From Sulfuriferula multivorans (GTDB lineage Bacteria; Pseudomonadota; Gammaproteobacteria; Burkholderiales; Sulfuriferulaceae), in assembly GCF_003851125.1 (NCBI RefSeq), contig NZ_BGOW01000010.1, positions 1-64,000 of the forward strand: a DNA stretch of 64,000 nucleotides. Reading direction: 5' to 3'. This document shows positions 242 through 30,821 of this stretch, in pieces. Made by a program: the position numbers and the translations under genes. The notes under the pieces were generated by a model, which was given only the letters and a program-made list of their open reading frames with translations, was not told the origin of the DNA and did no database searches. Every line of letters starts with the position of its first letter. The first letter of the stretch is position 1.

Positions 242-3034
242 TCAGAGACTCTTGAGCAACGCTTTGGCCGCTTCTGCCTCGGGGAATTTCTGGGTGTCGG
301 CGAGTAATTGTTCCAATTCTTTCCGAGCCTGGGTCTTGTCTCCGGTACGGACCAGCGCTGCGGCGTGGTGGTAGCGGAAGGATGCCACTTTGGGTGCCTT
401 GGCAACGGCTTTGCTCAGCAATTCCAGACCGCGCGGGGCTTGCCCCTGCTTTACCAGAATCCAGCCCAGGGTGTCCTGAATGGCTGGGCTGTCTGGGGCA
501 AGTTTCAAGGCCTGCTCGGCCGTAGCCAGTGCTCTATTGTCTTGTTCGCGCTCGTATAAGCCAGCCAGGTTATTCAGAACGAGTGCGTTATTTGGGGACT
601 GCCGCTGGATTTCCTGGTACTGGGCGATGGCCTCCTTATTTTGGCCACGAAAAATGTAGTACTCGGCAGCGTAGGCTCGCACCACGTTGTCGCTGGGATG
701 CTGTTTGAGCCAGGCGTTGAGGAGTTGCCCGGCAAGCGCGTTTTTGCCAACAAGAACGTAGACACGGTTTAGCTTGATGAATTCGGTCGATCCGGCACCT
801 TTATCCAGCGCTTGCTCATAAGCCTTGATTGCTTGAGGAAAATGTTTCTGGGCAGTCTGAATATCGCCTTCACGGTCGAATCCCAATGGGGATTTGGGTT
901 GTAGAGTCTGAATTTGGCGGGCAATCTGCAAAGCTGCTTCGAGTTTGTTTTCGGTCAGATTCAAACGGAGCAGTGTATCCAGAGTTTGCGACCGGTTCGG
1001 TTGGAGTTGTAGAGCTTTCTGTAAGCTTGTTCTGGCATCTGTCAGGTTCTTGTTGGCAATTTGGGCAAACGCTAGATGCAAGTAGGCATCTGGAGATTGC
1101 TCGTCCATTCTCGTTAGCTTAGTGAAAGTAACGATGGCGTTGGTTATATCATTGGTAGTCAGTTGTGTGGCGCCCAGCAAATTGAGTGCCCCTGGATTGT
1201 TAGGATTAGCATTAACCGCCTCTTTTGCTAAGGCCAATGCTTTCTGGGGTTGATTCTTGGTCAGGTAATACTGGGTGAGTGCGGCACGGGGTGGGATGGC
1301 TTCGGGGTGTGCTTTGGAAGCTTTTTCCAACCAACCGACGTAGGCATTTTCCTGTTTATTGATGGAGGCCAGCTCTGCCAGGGCCATCATGGCTTGTAAG
1401 TTGTTTTTATCAATGCTCAGGATGCTTTCAAAGCGTTTGCGCGCTGCGGCAGGGTTGTTCGCCTGTATATCAAGTTGCGCTAAATTTTCTGCTGCAGGGA
1501 AGAAATCAGGTTTGATCACCAGTGCCTGTTCGAAACTCTTGCGCGCATTGACCACGTCATTTTTGCCCAGATAGGCGCCGCCACGCAAATTGTAGGTGGT
1601 CGGATTATTAGGTTGTTTTTTGTCCAGCGCTGCGATGGCTAGCAGTGCGCGATCATACTGTTTGTCGCGTATCAGGCTTAGGATCAGCAGCGTGTCTGCA
1701 TCGCGTGCACCGGGGCCGGTGCCGCTATCCAGCGCAGCGGCGGATCCCAAGTCTGCTAACGCGCGTTCTGTTTCGCCGCTGGCTAGGAGACTTACTCCTA
1801 AACCGGTACGAATAGCAGCATTTTTTGGGTCAATTGCGGCGGCTTTCTCCAGGAGTTGTTTCGCTTTCGTGTATTCCTGTTCCTGTAGATAAATACCACT
1901 CACCAGCGCCAATAATTGTGGGTCATTTGACTGTTCTGGATTAAGCGGCTGCAAGGTAATGAGTGCTTGTTTGTTCTGGCCGAGTTTGGATTGCGTGACA
2001 GCTAGCAGCTTGAGGGCATATGCGTTGCCGGGTGTTCGTTCGAGGACTTTGCCAAGTTGGTTTGCAGTTTGTTCGTAAGAACCCAGAGCATAGTTCACAG
2101 CACTGGAAAGCAGCAGACTGGGTAGATGGTCCGGGGCGATTTGGAGCGCTTCTTGTAGTGCATCGCGTGCTTCCGGGTATTTATTTTGTTTAAAGGCCAA
2201 TAAAGCTTGTGTGTATTTGGAAAGCAGCGAGTTTGGCGCTATCTTGCGTATGCTCTCAATATCTCTTCGAGCCGTGTCCAATTGTCCGAGCGTGATATTG
2301 ATGAGGGCGCGGTTTTGTAGTGCTTCCAGATTATCCGGTTCGATTTTCAGCGCGCTGCTATAAGCAGTCAGCGCACCTTGCGTATTTTTATTGAGTTGTT
2401 CCAAATCACCAATAAATATCCAGGTCTTGGCCTGTCTGTCATTGATCTTGAGTGCGGTATCGAGCAAGGCTTTGGCTTTGCTCATGTCTTTATTTGCCAC
2501 CGCGCATTGCGCTAGCCCCCAATAAGTCGATGGATTACTCGTATCGGTATCGAGTGATTGCTGAAACAGATTACACGCCTCCTGCAATTTTCCTGTCCTG
2601 AGCAAGGCTTCGCCGCGCATTTGATAAATGCGTGCCAGGTTGGGTTTGGAAGTTGTGTCGCCCGGTTGAATTTCGGCCAGTACTCGATCGTATTTTCCCA
2701 TCAACATCAAGGCTTCGCCCAGAAGGGGTTTGATGGTTTCCTGGCGTACACCCAGTTTTTGAGCTTTTTGAAGTTCGTTTTCGGCTTCCGCACCCATGCC
2801 GGCTTTCAGGTAAATTTCTCCGAGTAGCAGCCTGGCTTGCGGGCTGTTGGGATTTTTCTGAAGTGCATTTTTCAGTTCAATCACGCCTGTCTTTAGATCG
2901 CCTTTGTCCTCAAAATCCTTTGCGCGCTGGATGAGTTGCTGCTCGGTCAGGTTGGCGTTATGGTCGCAGCCTTGCAAGGTGGACGTGGTTAATAATGCAA
3001 GGATCAAAGCCGACTGGAATGGTTTAAGTAACAT
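242..3034 (-). CDS. prsT: PEP-CTERM system TPR lipoprotein PrsT (second copy)
   Basis: A 930-residue protein with a lipoprotein signal peptide (hydrophobic stretch, then STLQG-C23) followed almost entirely by tetratricopeptide repeats. This matches the PrsT family, large TPR lipoproteins encoded with prsK and prsR in genomes that have exosortase XrtA and PEP-CTERM proteins. A role in secretion or assembly of the exopolymer at the envelope is inferred for the family. The ATG start has an AGGGA Shine-Dalgarno seven bases upstream. It lies 35 bp after another prsT copy, so the two are probably co-transcribed. The central third is much closer to the neighbour than the two ends are. Confidence 0.88.
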   Translation of the reverse strand: MLLKPFQSALILALLTTSTLQGCDHNANLTEQQLIQRAKDFEDKGDLKTGVIELKNALQKNPNSPQARLLLGEIYLKAGMGAEAENELQKAQKLGVRQETIKPLLGEALMLMGKYDRVLAEIQPGDTTSKPNLARIYQMRGEALLRTGKLQEACNLFQQSLDTDTSNPSTYWGLAQCAVANKDMSKAKALLDTALKINDRQAKTWIFIGDLEQLNKNTQGALTAYSSALKIEPDNLEALQNRALINITLGQLDTARRDIESIRKIAPNSLLSKYTQALLAFKQNKYPEARDALQEALQIAPDHLPSLLLSSAVNYALGSYEQTANQLGKVLERTPGNAYALKLLAVTQSKLGQNKQALITLQPLNPEQSNDPQLLALVSGIYLQEQEYTKAKQLLEKAAAIDPKNAAIRTGLGVSLLASGETERALADLGSAAALDSGTGPGARDADTLLILSLIRDKQYDRALLAIAALDKKQPNNPTTYNLRGGAYLGKNDVVNARKSFEQALVIKPDFFPAAENLAQLDIQANNPAAARKRFESILSIDKNNLQAMMALAELASINKQENAYVGWLEKASKAHPEAIPPRAALTQYYLTKNQPQKALALAKEAVNANPNNPGALNLLGATQLTTNDITNAIVTFTKLTRMDEQSPDAYLHLAFAQIANKNLTDARTSLQKALQLQPNRSQTLDTLLRLNLTENKLEAALQIARQIQTLQPKSPLGFDREGDIQTAQKHFPQAIKAYEQALDKGAGSTEFIKLNRVYVLVGKNALAGQLLNAWLKQHPSDNVVRAYAAEYYIFRGQNKEAIAQYQEIQRQSPNNALVLNNLAGLYEREQDNRALATAEQALKLAPDSPAIQDTLGWILVKQGQAPRGLELLSKAVAKAPKVASFRYHHAAALVRTGDKTQARKELEQLLADTQKFPEAEAAKALLKSL

Positions 3035-3069: not shown

Positions 3070-5853
3070 TTAATTTGTCTTGCCTTGCAGTTGCTTGAGT
3101 AGCGTACGCGCCTCAGACTCGTGTGAAAATGCGGCACCGCTAGCGAGCAGGCGTTCCAGTTCACTACGTGCACGAGCAGTGTCGCCGGATTTTGCCAGTG
3201 CCTGGATGTAGTGGTACTCGATTTCAGTGCTGTCAGGTGACTTCGACAACGCCTGCCGGAATAGTTGTATGGCGCGCCCGGTTTGCCCGCGGGTCATCAA
3301 TATTTCGGCTAGTGTATCCATAACGGCGGTATTGTCGGGGGCAAGCTTGTAGGCGCGTTCGGCATAATCCAATGCTCTTGCGTCGCCGGCGCGCTGCAGG
3401 CTCCATGCGTAGTTGTTGAGGATCAAAATGTTGTTGGGGGATTTTTCCAGCAATGTGGCGTAGTTGGTATTGGCTAGTTTGTAGTTGCCGCGCTCCATGG
3501 CGCTCTGCGCTAAATAGGCGCGGCTTGCGGCATCATCGGGGTGCGCCTTGAGCCAGACAAGCAGCCCGGCATCCGCCTCAGCGGCTTTGCCGGAAAGCAC
3601 TTTGGCGTTGTGGAGTTTAACGGCCAGCGGACCACTGTTTTGCAGGCGCCAGGCGGTTTCGTATTTTTGCAGTGCCAGTGCGGGCTGTTTTTGCATCAGC
3701 AGTGTATCGCCTTCCAACACCCAACCAACAGGGGCACGCGGCAGTTGCTGTTGTACCTTGTGTGCCATCTGGATGGCCTGATCGTAGTGTTTGCCCTGAA
3801 TGTCGAGGGCAATCAGTGCGGTCTGGGCATCAAGGAAATCAGGCTTGATCTGGAGTGCACGATTGAGCGCAGCGCGCGCTTTATCGGTTTGTTTGAGCGC
3901 CAGCTGTGCATTGGCGATCCGAACCTGAACCGCGGGGGATTGCGGCGCCATTTCGGCCAGTTTCTGGAAGCTGGCGAGAGCGTTGTCTTTATCGCCTGCC
4001 GCCAGTTGGGCGTTGCCGAGCATATCCAGTGCGGCCGGGTTACCGGGATTGGCAGTGCGGGCTTCTCTGGCCAGCACCAGGGCTTTGGAGAAGTCGTTTT
4101 TACGCAGGTAGTAATCGGCCAGCAGCAGACGCGGCTGCAGCGCATCGGGCGCAGTCTTGGCAGCCCGTTCCAGCCAGCTCAGGTAGTCCTTTTCCTGTCC
4201 TGCCCGGGCGGATAGCTGGGCCAGTGCAAGCATAGCCTGGGCATTGTTGGCATCGTGCTGGAGCAGCGTCTCGAAGCGCTTGCGTGCGGCGGCTGGGTTG
4301 TTTGCCTGCAGGTCGAGTTGCGCAAGATTGGCAGCCGCCGGAAAAAAATCCGGATTGATTGCCAGCGCCTGCTCGAAACTCTTGCGTGCGTTGCTCAGGT
4401 CTTTTTTGCCCAGATACGCGCCGCCACGCAAATTGTAGGTGATTGGGCTGTTGGGCTGCTTTTTGTCCAGATCGGCGATGGCTTGCAGGGCGCGGTCGTA
4501 CTTTTTGTCACGCATCAGCGTCAGGATCAGCAGCGTGTCGGCTTTGTGCGCGCCGGCTCCAGTATCCAGGGTCGCGGCGGATTCGAGGTCGGCCAGCGCG
4601 CGGTCGGTGTCGCCACTGGCGAGACGGCTCACGCCCAAGCCGGTGCGGATGGAGGCGCTCTTGGGGTCGATGGAGGCGGCTTTTTCCAGAAGCTGGTTGG
4701 CTTTGGTGAAATTATTGGTGTGCAGATAGAGGTCACCGGCCAGCGCCAGCAGCTGGGGGTCGTTCGATTCCTCCGGTTTGAGTGGTTGCAAGGTTGCCAG
4801 TGCCTGCGCACTCTGGCCCAGTTTGGCCTGGGTGGCGGCCAGCAACTTGCGCGCATAAGCGTTGGCAGGGGCTTTTTCCAGCACCTTGCCGAGCTGGCTT
4901 GCGGCCTGTTCGTAGGAGCCCTGCGCATAGTTGACTGCGGCAGACAGTAGCAGAGCAGGCGGGTATTCTGGCGCAGATTTCAGCACCTCCTGCAGGTTGT
5001 CGCGCGCTGCGTCGAGCTTGCCACCACGGAAATCCACCAGCGCCTGCATATAGCGCACGGAAAGGTTGTTGGGGTTGAGTTTGCGCGCCGCTTCGATTTC
5101 CTGCCGGGCTTCCGCGAATTTATTGCTCGCCAGATAAATGGAGGCAATGCTGAGGTGGGCAGCGGAGTTGGTTGGATCGCTTTTGATCGCCTCGCGGTAG
5201 GCAGCAAGCGCGGCTTCGGGTTGGTTTTTCAGGCGCAGCAGATCCGCTTTCATTAGCCAGGCGTCCCGGTCCGTGGGCGCCAGCTTCAAGGCATTCTCGA
5301 TTTCGCCGAGGGCGCTATCCAGGCTGCCTTTGGCGGCGGCGATGCGTGCCAGTCCCAAATGCGCCGAAGCAGAGCTGGGTGCCGCTTTGAGCGCTTCGTT
5401 GAACAGTTTTCCGGCTTTGTCGGGTTCATTCAGACCCAATTCCGCGTTGCCGCGGGCAACGAGGATCTGCGCCTGGAGCGGCCCGGAAGCACCCTGAGGC
5501 AGGGTGATTTCCTCAATCACCCGCTGGTAAGCACCTTGTCCCTGCAGCGCTTCGGCCAGCGCAACCACTACCTTGTCCGGGGAGTACCCGGCGTCGCGCG
5601 CGCGACGCAGCTCTTTTTCCGCCGAGGCGTAATCGCCGCTGCGGTTATAGGCAGTACCCAGCAGATAGCGTGCCTCGGCGTTTTTGTCATCTTTTTGCAG
5701 GACGTTCTTGAGCTGAATGATGGCGGCTTTGTCGTCGCCCTTTGCTTGTAATTGTTTGGCCTCGGACAGGTATTTTGATGTGGAATCGCCGCAAGCTGCT
5801 GTAGCGAATAGGGTCAGCAGCAATGCAATATGAAGGCGGGATATAGAGGGCAC
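3070..5853 (-). CDS. prsT: PEP-CTERM system TPR lipoprotein PrsT (first copy)
   Basis: A 927-residue TPR protein with a lipoprotein signal (LFATAA-C21), the same family and size as the following gene. The start is GTG, supported by an AGGAG six bases upstream. TPR units fill residues of about 25-920. It follows prsR after 245 bp. That gap shows no -24/-12 element, so whether it has its own promoter is unclear. Membership of the PrsT family is firm from length, lipobox and neighbours. The biochemical role (probably a scaffold for exopolysaccharide or PEP-CTERM protein handling on the periplasmic face of a membrane) is inference. Confidence 0.88.
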   Translation of the reverse strand: MPSISRLHIALLLTLFATAACGDSTSKYLSEAKQLQAKGDDKAAIIQLKNVLQKDDKNAEARYLLGTAYNRSGDYASAEKELRRARDAGYSPDKVVVALAEALQGQGAYQRVIEEITLPQGASGPLQAQILVARGNAELGLNEPDKAGKLFNEALKAAPSSASAHLGLARIAAAKGSLDSALGEIENALKLAPTDRDAWLMKADLLRLKNQPEAALAAYREAIKSDPTNSAAHLSIASIYLASNKFAEARQEIEAARKLNPNNLSVRYMQALVDFRGGKLDAARDNLQEVLKSAPEYPPALLLSAAVNYAQGSYEQAASQLGKVLEKAPANAYARKLLAATQAKLGQSAQALATLQPLKPEESNDPQLLALAGDLYLHTNNFTKANQLLEKAASIDPKSASIRTGLGVSRLASGDTDRALADLESAATLDTGAGAHKADTLLILTLMRDKKYDRALQAIADLDKKQPNSPITYNLRGGAYLGKKDLSNARKSFEQALAINPDFFPAAANLAQLDLQANNPAAARKRFETLLQHDANNAQAMLALAQLSARAGQEKDYLSWLERAAKTAPDALQPRLLLADYYLRKNDFSKALVLAREARTANPGNPAALDMLGNAQLAAGDKDNALASFQKLAEMAPQSPAVQVRIANAQLALKQTDKARAALNRALQIKPDFLDAQTALIALDIQGKHYDQAIQMAHKVQQQLPRAPVGWVLEGDTLLMQKQPALALQKYETAWRLQNSGPLAVKLHNAKVLSGKAAEADAGLLVWLKAHPDDAASRAYLAQSAMERGNYKLANTNYATLLEKSPNNILILNNYAWSLQRAGDARALDYAERAYKLAPDNTAVMDTLAEILMTRGQTGRAIQLFRQALSKSPDSTEIEYHYIQALAKSGDTARARSELERLLASGAAFSHESEARTLLKQLQGKTN

Positions 5854-6098: not shown

Positions 6099-7451
6099 TT
6101 ATTTCAGGCCGCAACGGTTGATCAAGTCATACAAGGTTGGCCGGCTAACGCCCAATAGCTCCGCAGCCTGCACGATATTGCCATTGGTACGCCCCAGGGC
6201 TCGGATCACTGCGCGACGATCGGCTTCTTCACGAACCTGGCGCAGGTTGAGCGGTTCGGATTCGGCGCCACCAGCTTTCAAGCCCAGATCCTGGGCGGTG
6301 ATCTGCGTGCCCTCGGCCATGATGACTGCGCGCTTGATGACATTCTCCATTTCGCGTACGTTGCCTGGCCAGGGGTGGGCTTCGATGGTTTCAATGGCGT
6401 CGGCTGTGAAGCCTTTCAGGGTGCGGTTTTGCTGAGTGCTGAATTTTTCCAGGAAGGCATGGGCGAGCAGGGCGGCGTCACCCTGACGCTCCCGTAGTGG
6501 CGGGATCGTCACGCTGATTTCACTCAGGCGGTAGTATAAATCCTGGCGAAAGCTGCCTGCCTGGATCAGGTTTTCAAGATTCTGGTGGGTGGCCCCGATC
6601 ACCCGCACATCGACCGGGATTTCGCCACGTCCGCCCAGGCGCTCGATGACGCGCTCCTGCAGGAAACGCAATAACTTGGCCTGCAGAGGTTGCGGCAAGT
6701 CGCCGATTTCATCGAGGAACAGGGTGCCTTTGCTGGCGTATTCGATTTTTCCGATAGTCTGTTTTGCAGCTCCGGTGAATGCGCCCTTTTCATAGCCGAA
6801 CAGCTCGGATTCGAGTAAGGCCTCGGGTATGGCTGCGCAGTTGATGGCGACAAAACGTTCACTGGCCCGGTTGGAGAGCCGGTGCAAAGCACGTGCCAGC
6901 ACTTCTTTGCCGGTACCGGATTCACCCAGCAGCAATACGGTTGCGTCGGAGGGGGCGACTTTTTCCACAGTACGACATACACGGACCATGACCGGTGCGC
7001 TGGTGATAATGCCGTGCATGACTTCGCCAGGCCTTTGTTGCTGGAGTACGCGGTTCTCTTGCTCCAGACCGTGCACGCGAAACGCGCGCGCAATGATCAT
7101 GTCCAGAATTTGCGGATCGAATGGCTTCTGGTAAAAATCATAGGCGCCAAGGCTGATGGCTTTGACGGCATTGACGCGATCCTGATTGCCCGTTACAACG
7201 ATTACCTTGGTGGAGGGTGCGATGGCTACGATTTGTTGCAAAGTAGCGAGTCCTTCCTCGGCACTGTCGGGAAACGGTGGCAGGCCGAGATCGAGCAATA
7301 CCACGGCCGGCTCGAAGCGACGGATCTGATTGAGAGCGGCTTCACGGTCGGCCGCCAGTTGTATGTCATACCCATCCAGGCTCCAGCGTAGCTGCTTTTG
7401 CAACCCCGGGTCGTCCTCGACTACGAGTAGTGTGGGTTTGTTATCGCTCAC
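6099..7451 (-). CDS. prsR: Sigma-54-dependent response regulator PrsR
   Basis: A 450-residue NtrC-type regulator. A receiver domain (phospho-acceptor D54 in VVLLDLGLP, acidic pair D13/D14, K109) is followed by an AAA+ domain with Walker A GESGTGKE (176-183) and GAFTGA (223-228), the loop that contacts sigma-54. A C-terminal Fis-type helix-turn-helix (AAELLGVSRPTLYDLI) completes it. The GTG start is chosen because it overlaps the prsK stop (GTGA) and has AAGGAG at good spacing; longer frames extend into prsK. It is the expected partner of PrsK. Three -24/-12 promoters in this window are likely targets. Confidence 0.93.
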   Translation of the reverse strand: MSDNKPTLLVVEDDPGLQKQLRWSLDGYDIQLAADREAALNQIRRFEPAVVLLDLGLPPFPDSAEEGLATLQQIVAIAPSTKVIVVTGNQDRVNAVKAISLGAYDFYQKPFDPQILDMIIARAFRVHGLEQENRVLQQQRPGEVMHGIITSAPVMVRVCRTVEKVAPSDATVLLLGESGTGKEVLARALHRLSNRASERFVAINCAAIPEALLESELFGYEKGAFTGAAKQTIGKIEYASKGTLFLDEIGDLPQPLQAKLLRFLQERVIERLGGRGEIPVDVRVIGATHQNLENLIQAGSFRQDLYYRLSEISVTIPPLRERQGDAALLAHAFLEKFSTQQNRTLKGFTADAIETIEAHPWPGNVREMENVIKRAVIMAEGTQITAQDLGLKAGGAESEPLNLRQVREEADRRAVIRALGRTNGNIVQAAELLGVSRPTLYDLINRCGLK

Positions 7452-9553
7452 GCGATTTCTCCTTGAGTCAAATTGCCTGTTTCTCGCCGCGTGTTTTCTG
7501 CGGGGATATGGATGTTGAAAGTAGTCCCCTGCCCGGGTGTGCTGGTCACGTCGATTCTGCCGCCCAGTTCGAGAATATATTCGCGGCATTCGTAGGCGCC
7601 AATGCCCATGCCGGAGCCTTTGGTGGAATCGAACGGGCGGAACAGGCGTTCGCGGATGAAGGCGTCATCCATACCGCAACCGGTATCGGTAATGTCTATC
7701 ACCGCATCGTCGTCCTGGAGCGACAGATGTACCTCAATATGCCCATCGTAGGGGGTGGCCTCTAGCGCATTTTGCAGGATGTGGCCGAGCACGCGTTTGA
7801 GGCGTTCGTGATCGGCATTGACTTCGATGGAAGCGACATCTATCTGCAGCACGGGTTTAAGCCGGTAGACATGTTTCTCGCCAATAATTTCGGAAAGCAA
7901 TCCGCCCAGCTCGATTTTCTGCTCGGTCAGCACTGCCGGCTGGCCGCCCTTGAGTTGTTGCAGCAGGCGATCCATGCGCGCCACCGAGCTTTCCACGGTG
8001 CTGATCATGTCGTCCACGAACTCCGGGTTGTGCTTGTATTTCCCGGCATTGGACACCAGCAGGGATTGCTGTGCGATGAGGTTTTTCAGGTCGTGCACGA
8101 CAAACGCCGCCATGCGGTTGAACGATTCGAACTGACGCGCAACGGTAAGGGCTTCCGCGGCCTCCATCTGGGCCAGGTTGGCAGCGGCTTGGCGCGCGGC
8201 GGTCTTGATCAGATCGCTGACTTCCCAGTTGAATGGGATTTTTCCCAATGAGCGACCGATAATCATGAATCCGATCAGTTTGTCGCGCACCAGTAGTGGC
8301 GCTAGCAGCCAGGCATCAGGGATGGCATTGATCCAGGCAGGCAGCTGCAGGCCTTCGTAGAGCTCGGGCTGGCTGCGATATTCATCCAGATTGATTACCC
8401 ATTCGCGCTGGGTAAGAAACTCAGCCAAGGCGCCATCGACAGGTTCTTCGCCATCGGCGTGGTGCAGATTCCAGCTAACTATGCGGGTGAAGCGATGAGG
8501 TTCGCGCGTTAGCCACAAGGCGCCCGACTGGCTCTCCACCAATCCCGCAACGGCCTGGATGGCGCGCGTGCATAGCTGTTCGCCGGGGTCACCCTGCGAC
8601 AGGATGCGGGTGAAATTGAGCCATTCATCGCGATAGTCGTAGGTGTAACTAAAAAAATGCTTGCTCAAAAATACCCGCACCCGTGCCCGCAGTGTGCCGG
8701 AAAATAGAACCGACAGCAGGATCACGAACGCACCGAACAGGAATGCCGCCTGCAGGATACTGCTCCATTCTCCGCCAAAGGTGCGGATGTAATAGCCTGC
8801 GCCTGCCATGATCAGCAGGTATACGCCTGCACCGAGCAGGGCTGCCGTATGGAAAAACAGTCGTCGGGATACGGTGACGCGCAGATCCCAGTTGGGATTG
8901 CGTTTGGCGGAAATGGCGATCAGCGGCACCGACAATGCATTCACAATTCCGCGTCCAGCCCAGATTTCCGCGTCAATATGTTGAAACAGCATGGCGTCGG
9001 AGTATAGGTAAAAGTCATAGACCAGCATGCCGCCCAGACCAAAGCACAGGTATTTGATGCCCCAGCGGTCCTCGCTGCGGGTACTGCGGAATAGCTGTTC
9101 CACCAATGCCATGCCAAGCACTGCCAGGATAACCCGGCTTACTGCGCCGCCGAGTAGTGTATCCAGTATCGGTAGATCAACGAGGCCCGGAAAAATACTC
9201 AACGAATCCGCCACGATACGTACTATTAGCAGCGCGCAGTATGCCAGCATGACATAGCCGGCCACGCGCAGAATGGACATGGTTTTAGGCTGCATGCCCT
9301 GGCGCTGGTTCACCAGGTCAAGAAGGAAATAAAGCCATGCGGCATCGCGCAACAGTTCTGTAATTGCGGTGAGCGAGGAGATGTGCTGGCCATGGTAAGC
9401 GTCCAGCGCTGCGAGTCCAGCCCACAATGCGCTTATCACGCTGGCAGCCATAAACATGCCGGTGCGATTGGCTCCGCGTCTCGATACTGCCATCGCGCTC
9501 AGTGCTACAAACGCAACCGATGCAAAACCGTAGCTGATCAGGGTGGCATTCAT
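7448..9553 (-). CDS. prsK: PEP-CTERM system histidine kinase PrsK
   Basis: A 701-residue membrane sensor kinase. The N-terminal ~300 residues form a series of hydrophobic helices. Then come a GAF-like region, a dimerisation/phospho-acceptor segment with H487 (VVHDLKNLIAQ), and a HATPase domain (DTGCGMD, GSGMGIGAYECREY). This layout is that of PrsK, found with XrtA-type PEP-CTERM systems. The ATG at 9553 is preferred over an upstream TTG that would overlap the sugar transferase; its protein start (MNATLISYGFASVAF) matches the family. The gene follows the transferase after 19 bp and overlaps prsR by 4 bp, so all three form one operon. Confidence 0.92.
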   Translation of the reverse strand: MNATLISYGFASVAFVALSAMAVSRRGANRTGMFMAASVISALWAGLAALDAYHGQHISSLTAITELLRDAAWLYFLLDLVNQRQGMQPKTMSILRVAGYVMLAYCALLIVRIVADSLSIFPGLVDLPILDTLLGGAVSRVILAVLGMALVEQLFRSTRSEDRWGIKYLCFGLGGMLVYDFYLYSDAMLFQHIDAEIWAGRGIVNALSVPLIAISAKRNPNWDLRVTVSRRLFFHTAALLGAGVYLLIMAGAGYYIRTFGGEWSSILQAAFLFGAFVILLSVLFSGTLRARVRVFLSKHFFSYTYDYRDEWLNFTRILSQGDPGEQLCTRAIQAVAGLVESQSGALWLTREPHRFTRIVSWNLHHADGEEPVDGALAEFLTQREWVINLDEYRSQPELYEGLQLPAWINAIPDAWLLAPLLVRDKLIGFMIIGRSLGKIPFNWEVSDLIKTAARQAAANLAQMEAAEALTVARQFESFNRMAAFVVHDLKNLIAQQSLLVSNAGKYKHNPEFVDDMISTVESSVARMDRLLQQLKGGQPAVLTEQKIELGGLLSEIIGEKHVYRLKPVLQIDVASIEVNADHERLKRVLGHILQNALEATPYDGHIEVHLSLQDDDAVIDITDTGCGMDDAFIRERLFRPFDSTKGSGMGIGAYECREYILELGGRIDVTSTPGQGTTFNIHIPAENTRRETGNLTQGEIA

Positions 9554-9572
9554 GTGGGCGACAGCGGCGGGT

Positions 9573-10967
9573 TTACTGACCTTTGCCCCAGAGTACAACC
9601 TGTACTGTCTGAAACAGGACCATCATGTCAAGGAACAGGGTATGGTTTTTGACATAGTACAAATCATATTGCAGCTTTTCCACCGCATCCTCAACGCTGG
9701 CGCCATACGCGTAACACACCTGCGCCCAGCCGGTAATGCCGGGTTTGACGGTGTGACGGCTGTTGTAATAGGGAATCTGCCGGGTCAATTCATCGACGAA
9801 ATAGGGACGCTCGGGCCGCGGGCCAACAAAGCTCATATGTCCCATGAATACGTTAAATAGTTGCGGCAGTTCATCAAGACGCACGCGCCGAATAAAACGT
9901 CCGGTACGTGTGGTGCGATCGTCATCCTTGTTCGCCCAACGCGGTTTGCCGTCCTGTTCTGCATCGGGACGCATGCTGCGAAATTTCAAGATGGTGAATG
10001 GCTTGCCATGTTGACCTACGCGTTCCTGACGATAGAGTACCGGGCCGCCGCTTTCCAGATAAATTGCCAGTGCAGTCAGTGCCATGGCGGGCAGTGAAAT
10101 CAGCATGATGACGAGACTCACCACCAGATCGAAAATGCGTTTGATGGTGTCGCGCGCGAGTCCCTGCTTGAAGCCTTCGGATAGGATGATCCAGCTGGCG
10201 TTAAGTGATTCCAGTTGCAGTTGACCATTTTCGCGCTCGAAGAATGAGGATAGCTCAATGACATTGATGCCGCGCAACTTGCATTCCAGTAATTCGCTCA
10301 CTGGCAGACCGCCATCACGGCGGTCGCGTACCGCAATGACGATTTCATGGATATTGTATTTGGTGACGATTTCGCCGAGGCTGGTGGTGTCATGCAATAC
10401 GCGCGCATGCTCTACATAATGGTGGTTGCCCTGCAAGGGGAGATAACCCACTATTTGCAGGCTGCGGGCCGATGACATCGACTTGATCAGTTGATCCACC
10501 TTGGCGGCACGGCTGCCACTCCCCAGCACCAGGACACGTTTCTTGAAGGTGTCGAGATTAGACCATTTAACGAATGCAATGCGGGTAAGCGTTATACCGA
10601 TCAGGGCAAACAGCAGAGAAAACAGGAATGCGCCGCGTCCCAGCAGCATGTCCGGGAACAAATAAAACAGCAGGCTCATGACCACGAAACCCATTGCGAA
10701 ACTGGCAATCATGCGGACGGCAACGGCACGCGCACCCGCCATCCATTCGCCGCTATACATGCCGAATACGGTCATGATCAACATCATCACCAGGGCAAAC
10801 GAGCTGGCTTTAGGGAATATCGGGCCGAGTGAAGCAGGCAGGTCGCCGCTGTTCTCGATGAAACGCACGGAGATGCCTAGATAGATCGAAGCGACCATGA
10901 CGGCAAGGTCCAGCCCCATTATTAATATCAAATGGGCGGGTATGTAATGTCGGAAAAATCGAATCAT
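9573..10967 (-). CDS. Polyprenyl-phosphate sugar phosphotransferase, PEP-CTERM associated
   Basis: A 464-residue member of the bacterial sugar transferase family, type TIGR03013 (EpsB_2), which is associated with exosortase systems. About five N-terminal membrane helices precede a Rossmann-like middle (VLVLGSGSRA). The C-terminal catalytic part starts KRIFDLVVSLVIML, with ESGGPVLYRQERVG, FRSMRPDAE, LDELPQLFNV and VGPRPERP. Such enzymes load the first sugar-1-phosphate onto undecaprenyl phosphate to start exopolysaccharide synthesis at the inner membrane. It is the first gene of the operon with prsK-prsR and has a sigma-54 promoter about 85 bp upstream. Confidence 0.92.
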   Translation of the reverse strand: MIRFFRHYIPAHLILIMGLDLAVMVASIYLGISVRFIENSGDLPASLGPIFPKASSFALVMMLIMTVFGMYSGEWMAGARAVAVRMIASFAMGFVVMSLLFYLFPDMLLGRGAFLFSLLFALIGITLTRIAFVKWSNLDTFKKRVLVLGSGSRAAKVDQLIKSMSSARSLQIVGYLPLQGNHHYVEHARVLHDTTSLGEIVTKYNIHEIVIAVRDRRDGGLPVSELLECKLRGINVIELSSFFERENGQLQLESLNASWIILSEGFKQGLARDTIKRIFDLVVSLVIMLISLPAMALTALAIYLESGGPVLYRQERVGQHGKPFTILKFRSMRPDAEQDGKPRWANKDDDRTTRTGRFIRRVRLDELPQLFNVFMGHMSFVGPRPERPYFVDELTRQIPYYNSRHTVKPGITGWAQVCYAYGASVEDAVEKLQYDLYYVKNHTLFLDMMVLFQTVQVVLWGKGQ

Positions 10968-11051: not shown

Positions 11052-11068
11052 ACGCAGGATACGTGCCA
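11052..11068 (-). promoter_or_regulatory. Sigma-54 (-24/-12) promoter of sugar transferase-prsK-prsR
   Basis: On the minus strand the sequence is TGGCACGTATCCTGCGT. It has a perfect TGGCAC -24 element, five bases, then CTGC, so GG and GC are exactly ten bases apart as RpoN requires. The expected transcript would start near 11042, leaving a leader of about 75 nt. Since the operon encodes a sigma-54 activator (PrsR), autoregulation is likely (inference). Confidence 0.78.
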
Positions 11069-11174
11069 GTTGTAAAAAATGGCGAATTGTTTTGCCCAGG
11101 CACGGTGTTTAGGAAACTCAAACAATCCCTTCGGGGCAAGAGTCTAGCGGTGCGGCGTCGTGATCTCAACTGTA

Positions 11175-11191
11175 TGTCGGATTTCTTGACA
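11175..11191. promoter_or_regulatory. Candidate PrsR-binding dyad, sugar transferase operon
   Basis: A 17-bp dyad, TGTCAAGAAATCCGACA on the minus strand (TGTC-N9-GACA), centred about 116 bp upstream of the -24 element. Similar dyads with TGTC-N9-TACA occur at almost the same distance from the sigma-54 promoters of both PEP-CTERM genes. The assignment to PrsR is inference from position and co-occurrence. Confidence 0.5.
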
Positions 11192-16075: not shown

Positions 16076-16695
16076 CTCTAGATGACCTGAATAATCTCAA
16101 CCTGAAGGATCTTGCCAATGCGCAGATGAGCGTTAAGGCGGTTCTTCTGGCGGTGCTGTTTGTGGCGATTGTTTTCGCCGGCTACTGGTTTGGCTGGAGT
16201 GGGCAACTCGATGCATTAAATACTGCCAAGCAGGAAGAGATGTCCCTGCGCGACACTTACATGAACAAAAAGCGTCAGGCTATTAACCTTGATGCTTACA
16301 AACAGCAACTCAAGGACATAGAGCGCTCGTTCGGCGCGCTGCTCAAACAGTTACCCAACAAGTCCGAGATGGATGCGCTACTGACCGACATTAACCAGGC
16401 AGGGCTGGGGCGTGGCCTGCAATTTGAGTTATTCAAGCCGGGCACAGAAAAAATCGGTGATTTCTACGCCGAATTACCAATCAGTGTGCGCCTTACCGGC
16501 AGTTATCATGATCTTGGCGCCTTTGCCAGCGACATCGCGCAACTACCGCGTATCGTTACCTTGCATGATATTGAAATCAGTCCGGAAAAAGACGGTGCCT
16601 TATCCATGAATGCCGTCGTGAAAACCTATCGTTATCTGGACGATGACGAAATTGCGGCGCAAAAAAAAGGCGCCAAGGGAGCAGCTAAAAAATGA
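16072..16695 (+). CDS. pilO: Type IV pilus assembly protein PilO
   Basis: A 207-residue bitopic inner-membrane protein with one helix at about 24-44, a coiled coil and a periplasmic domain. It pairs with PilN in the alignment subcomplex between motor and secretin. The start overlaps the pilN stop (ATGA). The C-terminus is lysine-rich (KKGAKGAAKK). Confidence 0.95.
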   Translation: MTLDDLNNLNLKDLANAQMSVKAVLLAVLFVAIVFAGYWFGWSGQLDALNTAKQEEMSLRDTYMNKKRQAINLDAYKQQLKDIERSFGALLKQLPNKSEMDALLTDINQAGLGRGLQFELFKPGTEKIGDFYAELPISVRLTGSYHDLGAFASDIAQLPRIVTLHDIEISPEKDGALSMNAVVKTYRYLDDDEIAAQKKGAKGAAKK

Positions 16696-17195
16696 AACGG
16701 CTCGTTTCCATTATCCTGTTATTGAGCCTCGCCGCATGCGGCGGTAATGGCTATGAAGACCTGGAACAGTTTGTCAAAAACTCGGGCAACAATCTGCGCG
16801 GCAAGGTTGAGCCATTGCCTGAGGTCAAGCCTTATCAGCCGTTTACCTATGCGGCATTTGACCTTCCCGACCCGTTCAAGCCGCGCAAACTCAAGCTATC
16901 TCAAGGTGGCGGCGGACTGCAGCCGGATATGAATCGTCCCAAAGAGCCACTTGAAGCTTACGCATTGGAAAGCCTGAAAATGGTAGGGGTACTCAAGCAA
17001 AAAGGCCAGACATTTGCAATTATCAAGGCGCCGGACAACGCAATTTACCGGGTTCATAGCGGCAACCACATGGGGCAAAATTTTGGTCTGGTTACCGCAG
17101 TGAATGACACCACCGTGAAAATAAAAGAAATCGTGCAGGACAGCGCAGGCGACTGGGCAGAGCGCGAAAGCAACCTTACCCTGCAGGAACAGTAA
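16692..17195 (+). CDS. pilP: Type IV pilus lipoprotein PilP
   Basis: A 167-residue lipoprotein with signal MKRLVSIILLLSLAA-C16. A flexible proline-containing linker (PLPEVKPYQPFTY, DPFKPRK) leads to the C-terminal beta domain that contacts PilQ. It overlaps pilO by ATGA and connects the PilN/PilO inner-membrane complex to the secretin. Confidence 0.95.
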   Translation: MKRLVSIILLLSLAACGGNGYEDLEQFVKNSGNNLRGKVEPLPEVKPYQPFTYAAFDLPDPFKPRKLKLSQGGGGLQPDMNRPKEPLEAYALESLKMVGVLKQKGQTFAIIKAPDNAIYRVHSGNHMGQNFGLVTAVNDTTVKIKEIVQDSAGDWAERESNLTLQEQ

Positions 17196-17209
17196 ACATG
17201 AGGTCTACC

Positions 17210-19432
17210 ATGAAAAACAAACTGGCTCATTTATACCAACAATTACTTGCATGTATCGCCGTCGCCTTATTCCTGGCCATGGGTATGCAGACAGTACGTG
17301 CCGCGGGAAGCGACGCCAACAGCGTACAGTCGCTTGATTATTCCACGCTGGAAGATGGCAAGCTTCTGATTAAGGTGGGTTTAAAGCAGCCCCTTAAAGC
17401 CAGTCCTGCTGGCTTTGCCATCAACAACCCGCCGCGTGTCGTGCTTGATCTGGCCGGAGCCAGCAATGGTCTTGGTAAAAATACCGTCAATGTCGGACAG
17501 GGCGCGCTGCGCGATATCAATATCGTGCAAGCTGGAGACCGTACTCGCCTGGTGTTGAACCTGTCCAAGGCTGCCCAATACACCACACGCATGGAGGGTA
17601 ATGATCTGTTCATCACCCTGCAAGCATCCAATAATCAGATTACCAGCAATGAAACGCCGCGTTTCGCTGAAGGCTCGCCAAGCGCCGCCAAGCATAGTGT
17701 GCGCGACATTGACTTTCACCGTGGGTCAAGCGGAGAAGGGCGCATCGTCGCGACATTATCCGACACCACCACCGGCATCGATATTCGCAAGCAGGGTCAA
17801 CAGCTGGTTGTGGATTTCCTTAATACAGACGCGCCGCGCAGCCTGCAACGCCGTCTTGATGTCAATGATTTCGCAACACCCGTAAAATATATTGAAACCC
17901 AGAGCAACGGTGGCAATGTGCGCATGGTAGTGGAGCCCAAAGGCGACTACGAGTACTCCGCTTATCAGGCCGACAACCAGTTCACCATCGAAGTACGTGC
18001 CAAACAGGAAGAATCCGGTAAAACCGGCTCAGGCAAGCCCAAGTATACCGGCGACAAGCTTTCCCTCAACTTCCAGAACGTTGAGGTGCGCTCGGTGCTG
18101 CAAGTGATTGCCGATTTTACCGGGCTTAACATCATCACCAGTGACACGGTGAACGGTAACCTTACCCTGCGCCTGAAAGACGTGCCCTGGGATCAGGCTC
18201 TCGACATCATCATGCAAAGCAAAGGTCTGGACAAGCGCGTCAATGGTAATGTGATCTGGATCGCGCCCAAGGATGAGCTGGTTGCCAAAGAAAAAGCCGA
18301 ACTGGAGTCGCGTCAGGCTACCCAGGCACTGGAACCGCTGGTAGTGCGCAGCTACGAGCTGAACTACATGCGTGCCGAGCAAGCTGCCCGGGTATTGCAA
18401 GGGCAGGCCGCGGCACCGGGCGATAACGGAGAAGATGTGTCATGTTCGGCGCAAGCTCAAGGCGTCAAGGCAACCCCAGTGACAACTACGGCCGCACCAA
18501 CCACAGCACCTGGTTCAGCGGGCGGAGTGAGCCGGATACTTTCCGCTCGTGGTAGCGCCTCATCCGAGCCGCAGACCAACAGTCTGATAGTCAGTGATAC
18601 GCCCAGCAAACAGGATGAAGTACGCGAATTGCTCAAATTGATCGATATTCCTGCCAAACAGGTGATGATCGAAGCGCGTGTGGTGGTGGCGGATGACGGG
18701 TTCAGCCGTCAATTGGGCGTGCGCTTTGGTGTCCAGCATGGCCGCCCAGGCGACAGCGTGGGTGTTTCCAATAGCGCAGCTAACGCGGCGAATGGAATAA
18801 CCTCCGGTGTAAATGGCGCGGCGCCATTTAATTTTAATTTTCCTAATGTGAATCTGCCGGGTGCGGCTGGTGTGACTGGCACGCTTGGGCTGTCGCTGAT
18901 CAATCTGGGCAGCGGCAATTTGGTGAGCCTCGAGTTGTCCGCACTGGAAGCGGACAATCGCGGCAAGATCATCTCCAATCCGCGTGTAGTGACTTCCAAC
19001 CAGAGACCTGCGGTCATCCTGCAGGGCACGCAGATTCCCTACATTACCCCTGGCACCGCGAACTCCCCGCCCACAGTGACATTTAAGGATGCTTTTCTGT
19101 GTCTGCTGGTTAACCCCCAAATCCTGAACAACGATTCAGTGATCTTGAATGTCGAAGTGCAGAAAGATGCTCAGGGGATCAGCGTGGCGGGGCAGCCTGC
19201 CATAGATACCAAACGGGTTAAAACGCAGGTGCGCTTGAAGAACGGTGAAACGGCAGTTCTGGGAGGTATCTTCGAACAAACTACCCGGAATGATACCAAT
19301 AAGGTGCCATTGCTGGGAGATATTCCGGTATTAGGGAATTTGTTCAAAACGACGAACAAGCAGAATAGCAAAATGGAATTGCTGATATTCCTCACTCCAC
19401 GCATTATCAAGGATAATATGGAATTGCGTTAA
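17210..19432 (+). CDS. pilQ: Type IV pilus secretin PilQ
   Basis: A secretin of about 740 residues forming the outer-membrane pilus channel. It has a signal peptide ending around TVRA-AG, two AMIN domains (about 40-140 and 160-260) that bind peptidoglycan, an STN/N0 domain near 280-350, an N1 domain, and the secretin core with [15 protein letters not shown] and LLIFLTPRI near the C-terminus. An alanine/threonine/glycine-rich segment interrupts N1 and the core around residues 410-440. ATG 17210 has GAGGT six bases upstream and is preferred over ATG 17198 four codons earlier. Confidence 0.95.
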
Positions 19433-28529: not shown

Positions 28530-29330
28530 TTAAGCAGCTTGTTTGCGACGACGCGCGGCTGCAAGACCGGCCAAGCCGATGCCGAGAAGTGCCAAGGAAG
28601 CGGGTTCGGGGACGGTACCATTACCAACAGAGCCTTTCGGTACGGAGGCAAAGCGCAGGGTGCCGCCAGCAACCAAGTACTCGCCGAAACCATCACCAAA
28701 GAAGGTTACCTTGGAGAAGAAGCCGGACGAGTCGATTGCGCCGATGAAATTGTTGTAGCCATCTCCCGCAGGAATCCCGGGGTTGTCATTAGCACTCAGG
28801 GCGTTGGCTGGCAAAGTGGCAGCACCCCCGTCAAACGCAATCCACAGACCCGAGCCGGTCGCCGGTACGCCATAGGTGGACACTACATTGGCATCACGGA
28901 CGGTGCCAGTACAGCAAGTTGCCCAGTCGCCAATTTCAAAGCCAAACGCGTTTACTGGCGAGCTGAAAGTAAAGGTTAAACCAGAGTTAAAACCGGGAAT
29001 CGGATCAGCGCCTGTAGCGGATGGACTAATGTCCCAGATAGCTCCGGAAAGAATGCCGTAGCTTCCGGATGGAATTGCAGCCGAACCATTACTGGTACGG
29101 GTAACCGAGACGGTTGCCGCATTGCCGTTTTTATCAGTGTAGTTGTACGAGCTTTGGCCACTGACGACTTGCGAAGTCGTGACTGTTGACCCGGTGCCTG
29201 TGATCACGCTGTCAAAAGCACTGGAAATATTGCTGATCGCGCTGTTGACAATAAGCGGGGCTGCGCTGGCGCTTGCTACCATGAACATGGCCGATGCGGC
29301 AAGTGCGCTGGCTAGTACGGTTTTTCTCAT
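28530..29330 (-). CDS. PEP-CTERM sorting-domain protein
   Basis: A 266-residue exported protein. A Sec signal (MRKTVLASALAASAMFMVASASAA) is followed by a low-complexity Ser/Thr/Gly/Asn-rich body of unknown fold. The C-terminal sorting signal has VPEPASLALLGIGLAGL then a basic RRRK tail, the form recognised and cleaved by exosortase. The ATG at 29330 is chosen since it begins the signal peptide and has GGAG upstream. Such proteins are anchored or released at the cell surface together with exopolysaccharide. A sigma-54 promoter and dyad lie upstream. The exosortase itself is not in the window. Confidence 0.9.
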   Translation of the reverse strand: MRKTVLASALAASAMFMVASASAAPLIVNSAISNISSAFDSVITGTGSTVTTSQVVSGQSSYNYTDKNGNAATVSVTRTSNGSAAIPSGSYGILSGAIWDISPSATGADPIPGFNSGLTFTFSSPVNAFGFEIGDWATCCTGTVRDANVVSTYGVPATGSGLWIAFDGGAATLPANALSANDNPGIPAGDGYNNFIGAIDSSGFFSKVTFFGDGFGEYLVAGGTLRFASVPKGSVGNGTVPEPASLALLGIGLAGLAAARRRKQAA

Positions 29331-29418
29331 AATGTAGCTCCTGAAATTAAAATTAATGGGGTCAGACACGATTACTAGCATTTCCCTAATTGCTATCGTG
29401 CTGCTTACGGTCACTGTA

Positions 29419-29435
29419 AAGCATTACCCATGCCA
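29419..29435 (-). promoter_or_regulatory. Sigma-54 (-24/-12) promoter of first PEP-CTERM gene
   Basis: Minus-strand TGGCATGGGTAATGCTT: TGGCA at -24 and TGC at -12 with GG and GC ten bases apart. It lies about 90 bp upstream of the ATG. The same element, differing at three positions, precedes the next PEP-CTERM gene. Confidence 0.78.
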
Positions 29436-29529
29436 ACAGAGAGGATAGTTATAAAATACCATTTAACTACAGCATGTTAAATATTAACGGTGTGGGCTCC
29501 AGCAACTAGTCTGTAAAGTTCCTAAGCGA

Positions 29530-29560
29530 GACTGTAAAAGTTACTGACAAACTTCTGACG
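29530..29560. promoter_or_regulatory. Candidate PrsR site upstream of first PEP-CTERM gene
   Basis: Contains the dyad TGTCAGTAACTTTTACA (minus strand; 29533-29549), 99 bp upstream of the -24 GG. A second GTCAG lies 11 bp from the first, one helical turn away. The whole 31-bp block is conserved at 30791-30821. Confidence 0.55.
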
Positions 29561-29771
29561 ACCAAGTGCGACGCTTCGGGCTTATCGAAGCCCTCACCGC
29601 ACGCAAGGCAGTCCCCTACCCAATTAGGCAATTTTCAATAGCGATCAAAGATTGCACGTTGGTGTGCTGGTAAATGACACGTCACCAGTATTGGCGTGTT
29701 TCCAAGAGAGATTTAATGCAGAAAAAGGAAACGAATGGGAGAGTTGTTGCTTGGGAGGGTACCGAAAATAG
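29561..29771. other. Intergenic region between PEP-CTERM gene units
   Basis: No credible gene. It holds a small hairpin (CTTCG-ggcttat-CGAAG near 29574) and a weak one (ACACG...CGTGT near 29677-29700). The rest shows nothing recognisable. Confidence 0.5.
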
Positions 29772-29795
29772 AAACGGCGGCCAAGGCCGCCGTTT
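29772..29795 (-). terminator. Rho-independent terminator after second PEP-CTERM gene
   Basis: AAACGGCGGCC-AA-GGCCGCCGTTT stem-loop, almost identical to the hairpin at 28483-28508 and at the same distance (about 22 bp) from the stop of a PEP-CTERM gene. On the minus strand it is followed by CTATTTTC rather than a long T-run, so it may be a weaker stop than its twin. Confidence 0.75.
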
Positions 29796-29817
29796 TGCAG
29801 TCAAGTAATCCGACAGG

Positions 29818-30600
29818 TCAAGCCATCTGTTTGCGACGGCGCATTACACCCAGACCGGCAAGGCCGATACCCAGCAGCGCCAGTGAGGCAGGTTCGGGAA
29901 CCGAAGAAGAGATAGGCGGTGGACAAGTCGGATTGCACGTCCCTGCCACATTGTCCAGGAAGAGGGCCGAATCCAGAATTGTGTCCTTGTCATTTGTAGT
30001 AACAAATGCGATTTTATACGCGCCAGTCTGTGTCAGGGTTTTGCTATAGGTTTGCCAGCCTGAATGGCCAGAAGTGCCAACAGCAATACCTAGACCGTGA
30101 ATGCTGGCCAGCACGTCGATCACGGGCGTCCCGTCCGGGTTGATGATGATCGCAAAGGACGGGTCGTTGTAAGGAATATAGTCGCGCGCTACATAATCCC
30201 AAGCCATCCCAATGCTGTCACCACTGTTGGCGTTGAAACCTTGATAGATCGCTGCTCCGTCCGTCAGGGAACCGCCACTCGAATTGGTGTTGTATGCATT
30301 AAGTGAGCCGCTAGCGAGGCCCAAAGCGGCCTCAATGCTGGATATCCCGGCACCATTGCTATTGAGTTGGGCCATTGTGGTGCCGGCGGCACCGATAGTC
30401 CAGACTGTACCGTCATACGTCGTCACACTTGTGGACGGGGTCGCAAAGACACTCCCTAGGGCTGTCCAGCCGCTTAGGGTGCCAGTTTCGAAATTTTGGT
30501 TCGCTAGCGAGATAACCGTAGCAGATGCGCTCCCTGCCGCAAACATACAAGTTGCCAATGCAACCGAAGCGGCCAGATTGTAAATTTTCAGATTTTTCAT
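29818..30600 (-). CDS. PEP-CTERM sorting-domain protein
   Basis: A 260-residue exported protein with a signal peptide ending GSASA/T and an N-terminal NQNFETGTLSGWTAL, typical of carbohydrate-binding-like beta-sandwich domains. A possible second strand set is near GWQTYSKTLTQTGAYKIAF. The sorting signal is VPEPASLALLGIGLAGLG plus RRRK. A cysteine pair sits just before it (CNPTCPPP). The SD GGGAG is seven bases before the ATG. The upstream region and 3' end resemble those of the preceding PEP-CTERM gene, but the mature domains do not. Confidence 0.9.
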   Translation of the reverse strand: MKNLKIYNLAASVALATCMFAAGSASATVISLANQNFETGTLSGWTALGSVFATPSTSVTTYDGTVWTIGAAGTTMAQLNSNGAGISSIEAALGLASGSLNAYNTNSSGGSLTDGAAIYQGFNANSGDSIGMAWDYVARDYIPYNDPSFAIIINPDGTPVIDVLASIHGLGIAVGTSGHSGWQTYSKTLTQTGAYKIAFVTTNDKDTILDSALFLDNVAGTCNPTCPPPISSSVPEPASLALLGIGLAGLGVMRRRKQMA

Positions 30601-30681
30601 GACAAACTCCCTGCCAAATTATTAAAAGAATTAATTTTGAGTCAGGCACGAATTGCGTTGTGCAGCTCTCGCTTATACGTC

Positions 30682-30698
30682 AAGCATTATTCATGCCT
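30682..30698 (-). promoter_or_regulatory. Sigma-54 (-24/-12) promoter of second PEP-CTERM gene
   Basis: Minus-strand AGGCATGAATAATGCTT with GG and GC ten bases apart, about 82 bp upstream of the ATG. It matches the element of the sister gene outside the central bases. Confidence 0.75.
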
Positions 30699-30790
30699 CA
30701 ATTAATTAGAAATTAAATCTTGTTTAACTACATAATGTTAATGGTTAACAATGTTAGCTCCAGTTGCTATTCTGGCAAGTATCCACGCGA

Positions 30791-30821
30791 GACTGTAAAA
30801 ACTCCTGACAAATCCCTGACG
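30791..30821. promoter_or_regulatory. Candidate PrsR site upstream of second PEP-CTERM gene
   Basis: Contains TGTCAGGAGTTTTTACA (minus strand; 30794-30810), 97 bp upstream of the -24 GG, plus a second GTCAG 11 bp away. It sits directly behind the stop codon of the symporter gene. Confidence 0.55.

Follow-up and report, generated by a model that had tools for sequence, protein, structure and literature searches.

Two PEP-CTERM genes of Sulfuriferula multivorans lie behind probable PrsR-dependent sigma-54 promoters of a class with helically phased spacing

Results

Two PEP-CTERM genes and the prs genes lie in one window

We analyzed a stretch of 64,000 nucleotides from Sulfuriferula multivorans (NCBI RefSeq assembly GCF_003851125.1, contig NZ_BGOW01000010.1, positions 1 to 64,000), which will be referred to as the window and to which all coordinates refer unless a contig is named. 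Two genes on its minus strand, gene A (28530-29330; 266 amino acids from the ATG at 29330) and gene B (29818-30600; 260 amino acids), code for PEP-CTERM proteins, and in a profile search both exceed the cut-off for PF07589 and TIGR02595. The same strand carries genes for the glycosyltransferase EpsB2 (9573-10967, TIGR03013), the histidine kinase PrsK (7448-9598, TIGR02916), PrsR (6099-7589, TIGR02915), which consists of a receiver domain, a sigma-54 activator AAA+ domain, and a Fis-type helix-turn-helix (HTH), and two PrsT TPR proteins (242-3034 and 3070-5853, TIGR02917); PrsR, PrsK, and PrsT all score over their cut-offs.

Upstream of each PEP-CTERM gene, pattern matching and direct reading reveal a 17-bp box of the form TGTC-N7-TTTACA, the proposed PrsR site, followed by a perfect -24/-12 promoter of the form GG-N10-GC. 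The gene A box, TGTCAGTAACTTTTACA (29533-29549, minus strand), lies 98 bp before the sigma-54 promoter GGCATGGGTAATGC (29421-29434, minus), and the gene B box, TGTCAGGAGTTTTTACA (30794-30810, minus), lies 96 bp before the promoter GGCATGAATAATGC (30684-30697, minus). The epsB2-prsK-prsR operon likewise has a perfect -24/-12 promoter, GGCACGTATCCTGC (11054-11067, minus), which stands 107 bp after a palindrome, TGTCAAGAAATCCGACA (11175-11191, minus), that is a candidate operator. These elements, at all three places, confirm an earlier sequence-only reading of this DNA, which had given the gaps as 97-99 and 108 bp by a different counting convention. By eye, box and promoter stand before only 4 of the 10 PEP-CTERM genes of this genome.

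The sequence-only reading named no published motif with which the box could be compared, but one has been described. Haft et al. 2006 (PMC1569441) report a 17-nt motif with the 3' end TTTACA upstream of most proteobacterial PEP-CTERM genes and, downstream of it, a second 17-nt motif corresponding to the -24/-12 pattern, with a spacer of 62.8 nt on average (SD 10.6, range 32-92). They found the pair at 99 of the 167 genes that they examined and named PrsR as the likely binder of the 17-nt motif; the NCBIfam name for PrsR (TIGR02915) is "PEP-CTERM-box response regulator." Genes A and B resemble the promoters of 2006 in having a 17-nt motif ending in TTTACA, a -24/-12 element, and a PEP-CTERM gene downstream, the boxes being matched to the description of motif 1 in the text of that paper rather than to its logo, and this genome resembles the genomes of 2006 in encoding PrsK, PrsR, and PrsT. 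The promoter type at genes A and B, including PrsR as the proposed binder, has been known since that paper. A further likeness is to pepA of Aquincola tertiaricarbonis, a PEP-CTERM gene with a mapped, RpoN1-dependent -24/-12 promoter and, upstream, what is remarked on as a "previously predicted enhancer sequence" (PMC9850573); pepA is a different gene from A and B, and the section reporting it gives no direct PrsR binding. PrsK/PrsR dependence has also been described in Zoogloea (as cited in PMC9012009).

Box and promoter recur across the order and track PrsR

The motif that the sequence-only reading had put forward, TGTC-N9-KACA, was too loose, since it occurs at background level in the S. 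multivorans genome (65 + 83 = 148 matches versus 76 + 65 = 141 for the control), and adding a loose -24/-12 element gave 27 matches versus 22. We give the recurrence for a strict pattern, TGTC-N7-WTTACA followed at 45-105 bp by a -24/-12 element, with the pattern read backwards as the control. It matched five times in the S. multivorans genome (control, 0) and 170 times across 150 genomes of the order, the matches being spread over 45 of them (control, 3). Matches were found in 33 of the 37 genomes with a PrsR over the curated cut-off and in 12 of the 113 others (Fisher p = 7e-19, a value that is optimistic because the genomes are related). Four genomes with PrsR thus have no strict match, and two of the 12 genomes that have matches and no PrsR over the cut-off (G142 and G107) contain a partial PrsR match below it. 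As claimed by the sequence-only reading, a cis-element of the PrsR/RpoN type precedes PEP-CTERM genes, and its distribution follows that of PrsR.

We inspected 130 of the 170 strict sites, made up of 30 loci and 100 fetched stretches, some of them short downstream (200 bases at L144 and 569 bases at L155). At 91 of these sites, a PEP-CTERM sorting signal lies within 1.3 kb downstream on the same strand; one site has such a signal on the opposite strand. Because 63 tails from these sites went into the sorting-signal profile, the count is circular for those 63. The figure of 91 replaces an earlier, laxer set of 98 sites, 28 of which were weak; where PEP-CTERM sites were needed, the 98-site set was used for the columns upstream of the box, the phasing draws and phase offsets, the phasing in single genomes, and the likeness of spacers.

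Spacing is helically phased and the box is used in one orientation

The gaps between box and promoter at the 130 inspected sites fall into peaks at about 52.6, 63.7, 74.7, 86.2, and 97.2 bp (10, 61, 32, 17, and 10 sites, respectively), with few or no sites in between. At a period of 11 bp, the 91 PEP-CTERM sites give a Rayleigh R of 0.757 (best period, 11.25), and the other 39 sites have an R of 0.66 at nearly the same phase. With the 98-site set, the largest R in 5000 draws from a smooth distribution was 0.32, compared with 0.75 observed, and the phasing persisted once the main peak was removed. Phasing is also seen inside single genomes, for example G045 (R = 0.80, 16 sites), and is weaker in some, such as G033 (0.46, five sites) and G053 (0.56, six sites), and differences of whole turns occur within single genomes. 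The gaps are phased over the class, and the idea of the sequence-only reading that spacings differ by whole helical turns is therefore right for the class. The range of 80-130 bp that it proposed is not the typical one: the main peak lies at 64 bp, and gaps of 100-160 bp yielded 16 matches versus 4 for the control.

Gene B (96 bp) and the S. multivorans kinase operon (107 bp) are each 0.7 bp off phase and gene A (98 bp) 1.3 bp; the kinase operon of the congener G005 (104 bp) is 3.7 bp off. The gaps of genes A and B fall in the peak at 94-102 bp, which with 10 of the 130 sites is among the two smallest, and exceed the maximum of 92 given in 2006 (PMC1569441), where the count may begin a few bases before the GG.

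Reading the box in the reverse sense before the promoter gave 14 matches, of which seven come from a single stretch repeated in genome G160, versus 3 for the control, which is near background. Such one-way use is not what we would expect where a Fis-type dimer binds an imperfect palindrome. The orientation may be mechanistic, or the cassettes may share it through common ancestry. Descent from a single ancestral cassette, with no part for mechanism, is a possibility that we hold at somewhat less than even odds. Genes A and B (see below) show that whole cassettes can be copied, but the gaps vary by whole turns, even inside single genomes, and the spacers are unalike: among the 98 sites, nearly all pairs of spacers show no greater similarity than shuffled ones do, and clustering at 60% identity, which merges 91 of the 98 spacers, operates near the random level.

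IHF-like sites occupy phased positions in related promoters

The spacers of the class are enriched in IHF-like sites. The exact sequence WATCAANNNNTTR, in either sense, is present in 21 of 130 spacers (shuffles: mean 1.2, maximum 5), and matches of at least 8 of 9 letters are present in 43 of 130 spacers in the reverse sense (mean 11.6, maximum 19) and in 38 of 130 in the forward sense (mean 11.1, maximum 20), all controls being letter shuffles rather than dinucleotide shuffles. The 44 reverse-sense matches are concentrated at particular positions: 26 start 32-34 bp and eight start 43-45 bp before the -24 element, and, counted from the other side, 21 start 30-32 bp and 13 start 41-43 bp after the box. 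Forward-sense matches form looser clusters at 30-32 and 19-21 bp before the -24 element. Further, in the 64-bp class, columns are conserved as A at -32 and -31 and as T, T, G/T, A, and A/T at -26 to -22 before the GG of the -24 element. In the A, B, and kinase promoters of the window, no IHF-like site above 7 of 9 letters was found; the feature therefore belongs to the class and not to these three promoters.

The palindrome of the kinase operon is conserved within one genus

Two congeners (G002 and G005) share 16 of the 17 positions of the palindrome upstream of epsB2-prsK-prsR amid otherwise diverged DNA, and because of this conservation the palindrome is probably functional. Directly after it lies a block, CAGTTGAGATCACGAC (11157-11172, minus), that is largely kept in three congeners.

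EpsB2 scored over the cut-off in 44 genomes, and we scanned 450 bp upstream of approximate start codons at 33 loci (30 loci plus three more), of which 32 were assessable, L264 being too near a contig end. One locus (L080, in the congener G014) was left out, being masked at the promoter, and L311 and L312, whose upstream DNA is identical to that of the G014 and G005 loci, were not recounted. The palindrome was present at 3 of the 32 assessable loci, all in one genus, and some of the loci without it had -24/-12-like matches. Over the 150 genomes, the 17-nt palindrome with a promoter gave 51 matches versus 29 for the control, a mild excess. The kinase site ends in CCGACA, not in the TTTACA of motif 1. 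The general link that the sequence-only reading drew between the PEP-CTERM genes and the kinase operon did not hold up in the orthologous operons, and we regard a link of the kinase operon to PrsR-box promoters as possible and weak.

At nif promoters, the NifA activator site is a symmetric 16-bp TGT-N10-ACA, and at nifH IHF acts between this site and the promoter. In comparison, the PrsR box is 17 bp long, asymmetric, and used in essentially one orientation. The A, B, and kinase sites all have the 17-bp frame TGT-N11-ACA, and none has the 16-bp NifA form. A 16-bp palindrome pattern with a promoter gave 51 matches versus 11 for the control; we read several of these palindromes, lying before nifH-, nifV-, and nifB-like genes (identified by eye from the protein starts), as NifA sites, and these served as an unplanned positive control.

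Two readings of the kinase palindrome have to be weighed. First, it may be a PrsR site through which the operon is positively autoregulated, a reading that we hold at somewhat less than even odds. The palindrome shares the TGT-N11-ACA frame of the PEP-CTERM boxes, it is kept in G002 and G005, its -24/-12 promoter is perfect, and in two of the three genomes that carry it the 107-bp gap fits the helical phase of those boxes; in the third congener, the gap of 104 bp is out of phase, and the altered right half (CCGACA), the lack of the palindrome at 29 of the 32 EpsB2 loci, and its mild excess elsewhere also argue against it. Second, another enhancer-binding protein may bind the palindrome, which we hold at the same odds. 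In favor of such a protein, the site forms a perfect inverted repeat (TGTC...GACA) and has a conserved CAGTTGA block after it, with no such block after the PEP-CTERM boxes, and the palindromes read as NifA sites show that near-relative dyads serve other activators; the fact that the operon encodes PrsR itself speaks against it.

The upstream regions of genes A and B are duplicates

The DNA upstream of gene A and gene B is homologous, with 145 identical positions in 212 aligned columns and a local score of 72, compared with at most 14 in 300 shuffles, and so, judged from this alignment, the two regions are copies of one cassette. Genes A and B are therefore not independent evidence. In a BLASTP comparison, the two proteins share a sorting tail (23 of 28 residues identical) and no other significant match. 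Across 28530-30600, a copied upstream cassette and a copied sorting tail thus enclose unlike bodies, as if bodies had been swapped between fixed ends.

A second GTCAG lies 11 bp before the GTCAG of the box in both gene A (29555-29559, minus, read from 29559) and gene B (30816-30820, minus, read from 30820). The sequence-only reading was correct that this element is common to the two genes at that distance; its place in the operator is not supported, since A and B are duplicates and it is not typical of 97 other sites, where no column before the box exceeded 0.25 bits and the words TGTC, CGTC, GTCG, and GTCA occurred at most three times at any one place. We also note a palindrome, TTTAAC-N8-GTTAAA, in the gene A spacer (29435-29532, minus), which is present with one mismatch in the gene B spacer (30698-30793, minus); TTAAC-N6-10-GTTAA was found in none of 130 other spacers. 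Because the cassette is copied, neither the second GTCAG nor the spacer palindrome adds independent support.

It is very improbable that A and B resemble each other merely because one upstream region was duplicated, without any meaning as an operator: their upstream DNA is homologous, yet their proteins share only the sorting tail, and the second GTCAG is not seen elsewhere, but the box and -24/-12 element occur 170 times across 45 genomes versus 3 for the control, with spacers whose similarity, for nearly all pairs, does not exceed that of shuffled ones. We conclude that duplication best explains the second GTCAG and the spacer palindrome and that recurrence elsewhere speaks against it for the box and promoter.

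Some sites precede genes without a PEP-CTERM tag

Thirty-nine inspected sites have no sorting signal downstream, and the proteins of 11 of these were scanned against Pfam and NCBIfam, in two sets of ten that have nine proteins in common. Exosortase and exopolysaccharide (EPS) genes had been expected among the targets; in the 11 proteins there was no exosortase, and EPS-related names arose only as repeat similarities below the cut-off (ExoR and AlgK) in L169, whose product resembles a lytic transglycosylase, also below cut-offs. A YcgR/PilZ protein lies behind the box at L220.

At six of the 130 sites (L054, L064, L175, L210, L224, and L231), the box and -24/-12 element precede a protein with an N-terminal RR(R/Q) and a hydrophobic stretch, judged by eye to resemble a Tat signal, of the RRR(F/L) type. 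L224 belongs to the S. multivorans genome (C1:35188, within C1:34988-36488). BLASTP relates L224 to L210 and L231, and L064 to L175, and these Tat-like proteins gave no convincing Pfam or NCBIfam match. A small membrane protein of 75-79 amino acids also stands behind the box and -24/-12 element, in S. multivorans (L225, C26:16459, within 16259-17759) and in the congener G014 (L045, which lies outside the 130 inspected sites), the two being alike by eye. Two further types of protein without the tag recur behind the box, at L072 and L187 and at L211 and L217 (alike by eye); the profile scan of L187 and L217 gave no clear family.

Discussion

Genes A and B appear, on the evidence of their DNA, to be transcribed from sigma-54 promoters that depend on PrsR and belong to the published PEP-CTERM-box type, and we put the probability of this reading, together with the looping mechanism as a whole, at about 90%. 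The box, the promoter, the phasing, the orientation, the IHF-like sites (in the relatives only), and the co-occurrence with PrsR are computed features. For the mechanism, we infer the following course of PrsR phosphorylation, PrsR binding, looping, and assistance by IHF. PrsK would, to go by its domains, phosphorylate PrsR, whose Fis-type HTH would then bind the oriented 17-bp box. The short DNA between box and promoter would bend, probably helped in some homologous promoters by IHF at the phased place, so that the AAA+ ring of PrsR, brought to the correct face of the helix, could contact the sigma-54 polymerase at the -24/-12 element and open the promoter. Surface-protein genes would thereby be switched on together. 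The kinase operon, with its sigma-54-type promoter and genus-conserved palindrome, would contribute a candidate PrsR operator. A comparable arrangement is NtrC at Klebsiella nifLA (Minchin 1989, as cited in PMC7408454), which, like the PrsR-box class, combines a sigma-54 promoter with an upstream activator site and depends on the face of the helix.

Beyond the promoter type itself, helical phasing, the orientation of the box, phased IHF-like sites, and some unclassified Tat-like targets go further than the text of 2006; the first three belong to the present description of the class and are absent from the section on the motif in Haft et al. 2006 (PMC1569441). Among the literature matches listed, which were titles and openings of abstracts with thin coverage of subscription papers, none described PEP-CTERM promoters in terms of phasing, orientation, or IHF. 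On balance, we favor the view that PrsR promoters work as rigid devices with at most three components, namely a one-way 17-bp box, a site for IHF, and a -24/-12 element, in which the end of the box would lie about 31 or 42 bp from the start of the IHF site and that start about 33 or 44 bp from the -24 element, in steps of about 11 bp, and that these devices also drive genes without a PEP-CTERM tail, including those for uncharacterized Tat-like (RRR-type) secreted proteins.

Phase, orientation, and the position of the IHF-like site turn the sequence logo of 2006 into a testable mechanical model. PrsR targets would have practical use because floc formation in a bacterium from activated sludge is reported to be under PrsK/PrsR control (PMC9012009), and the added geometry offers a sharper pattern for finding such targets, including those without the PEP-CTERM tag.
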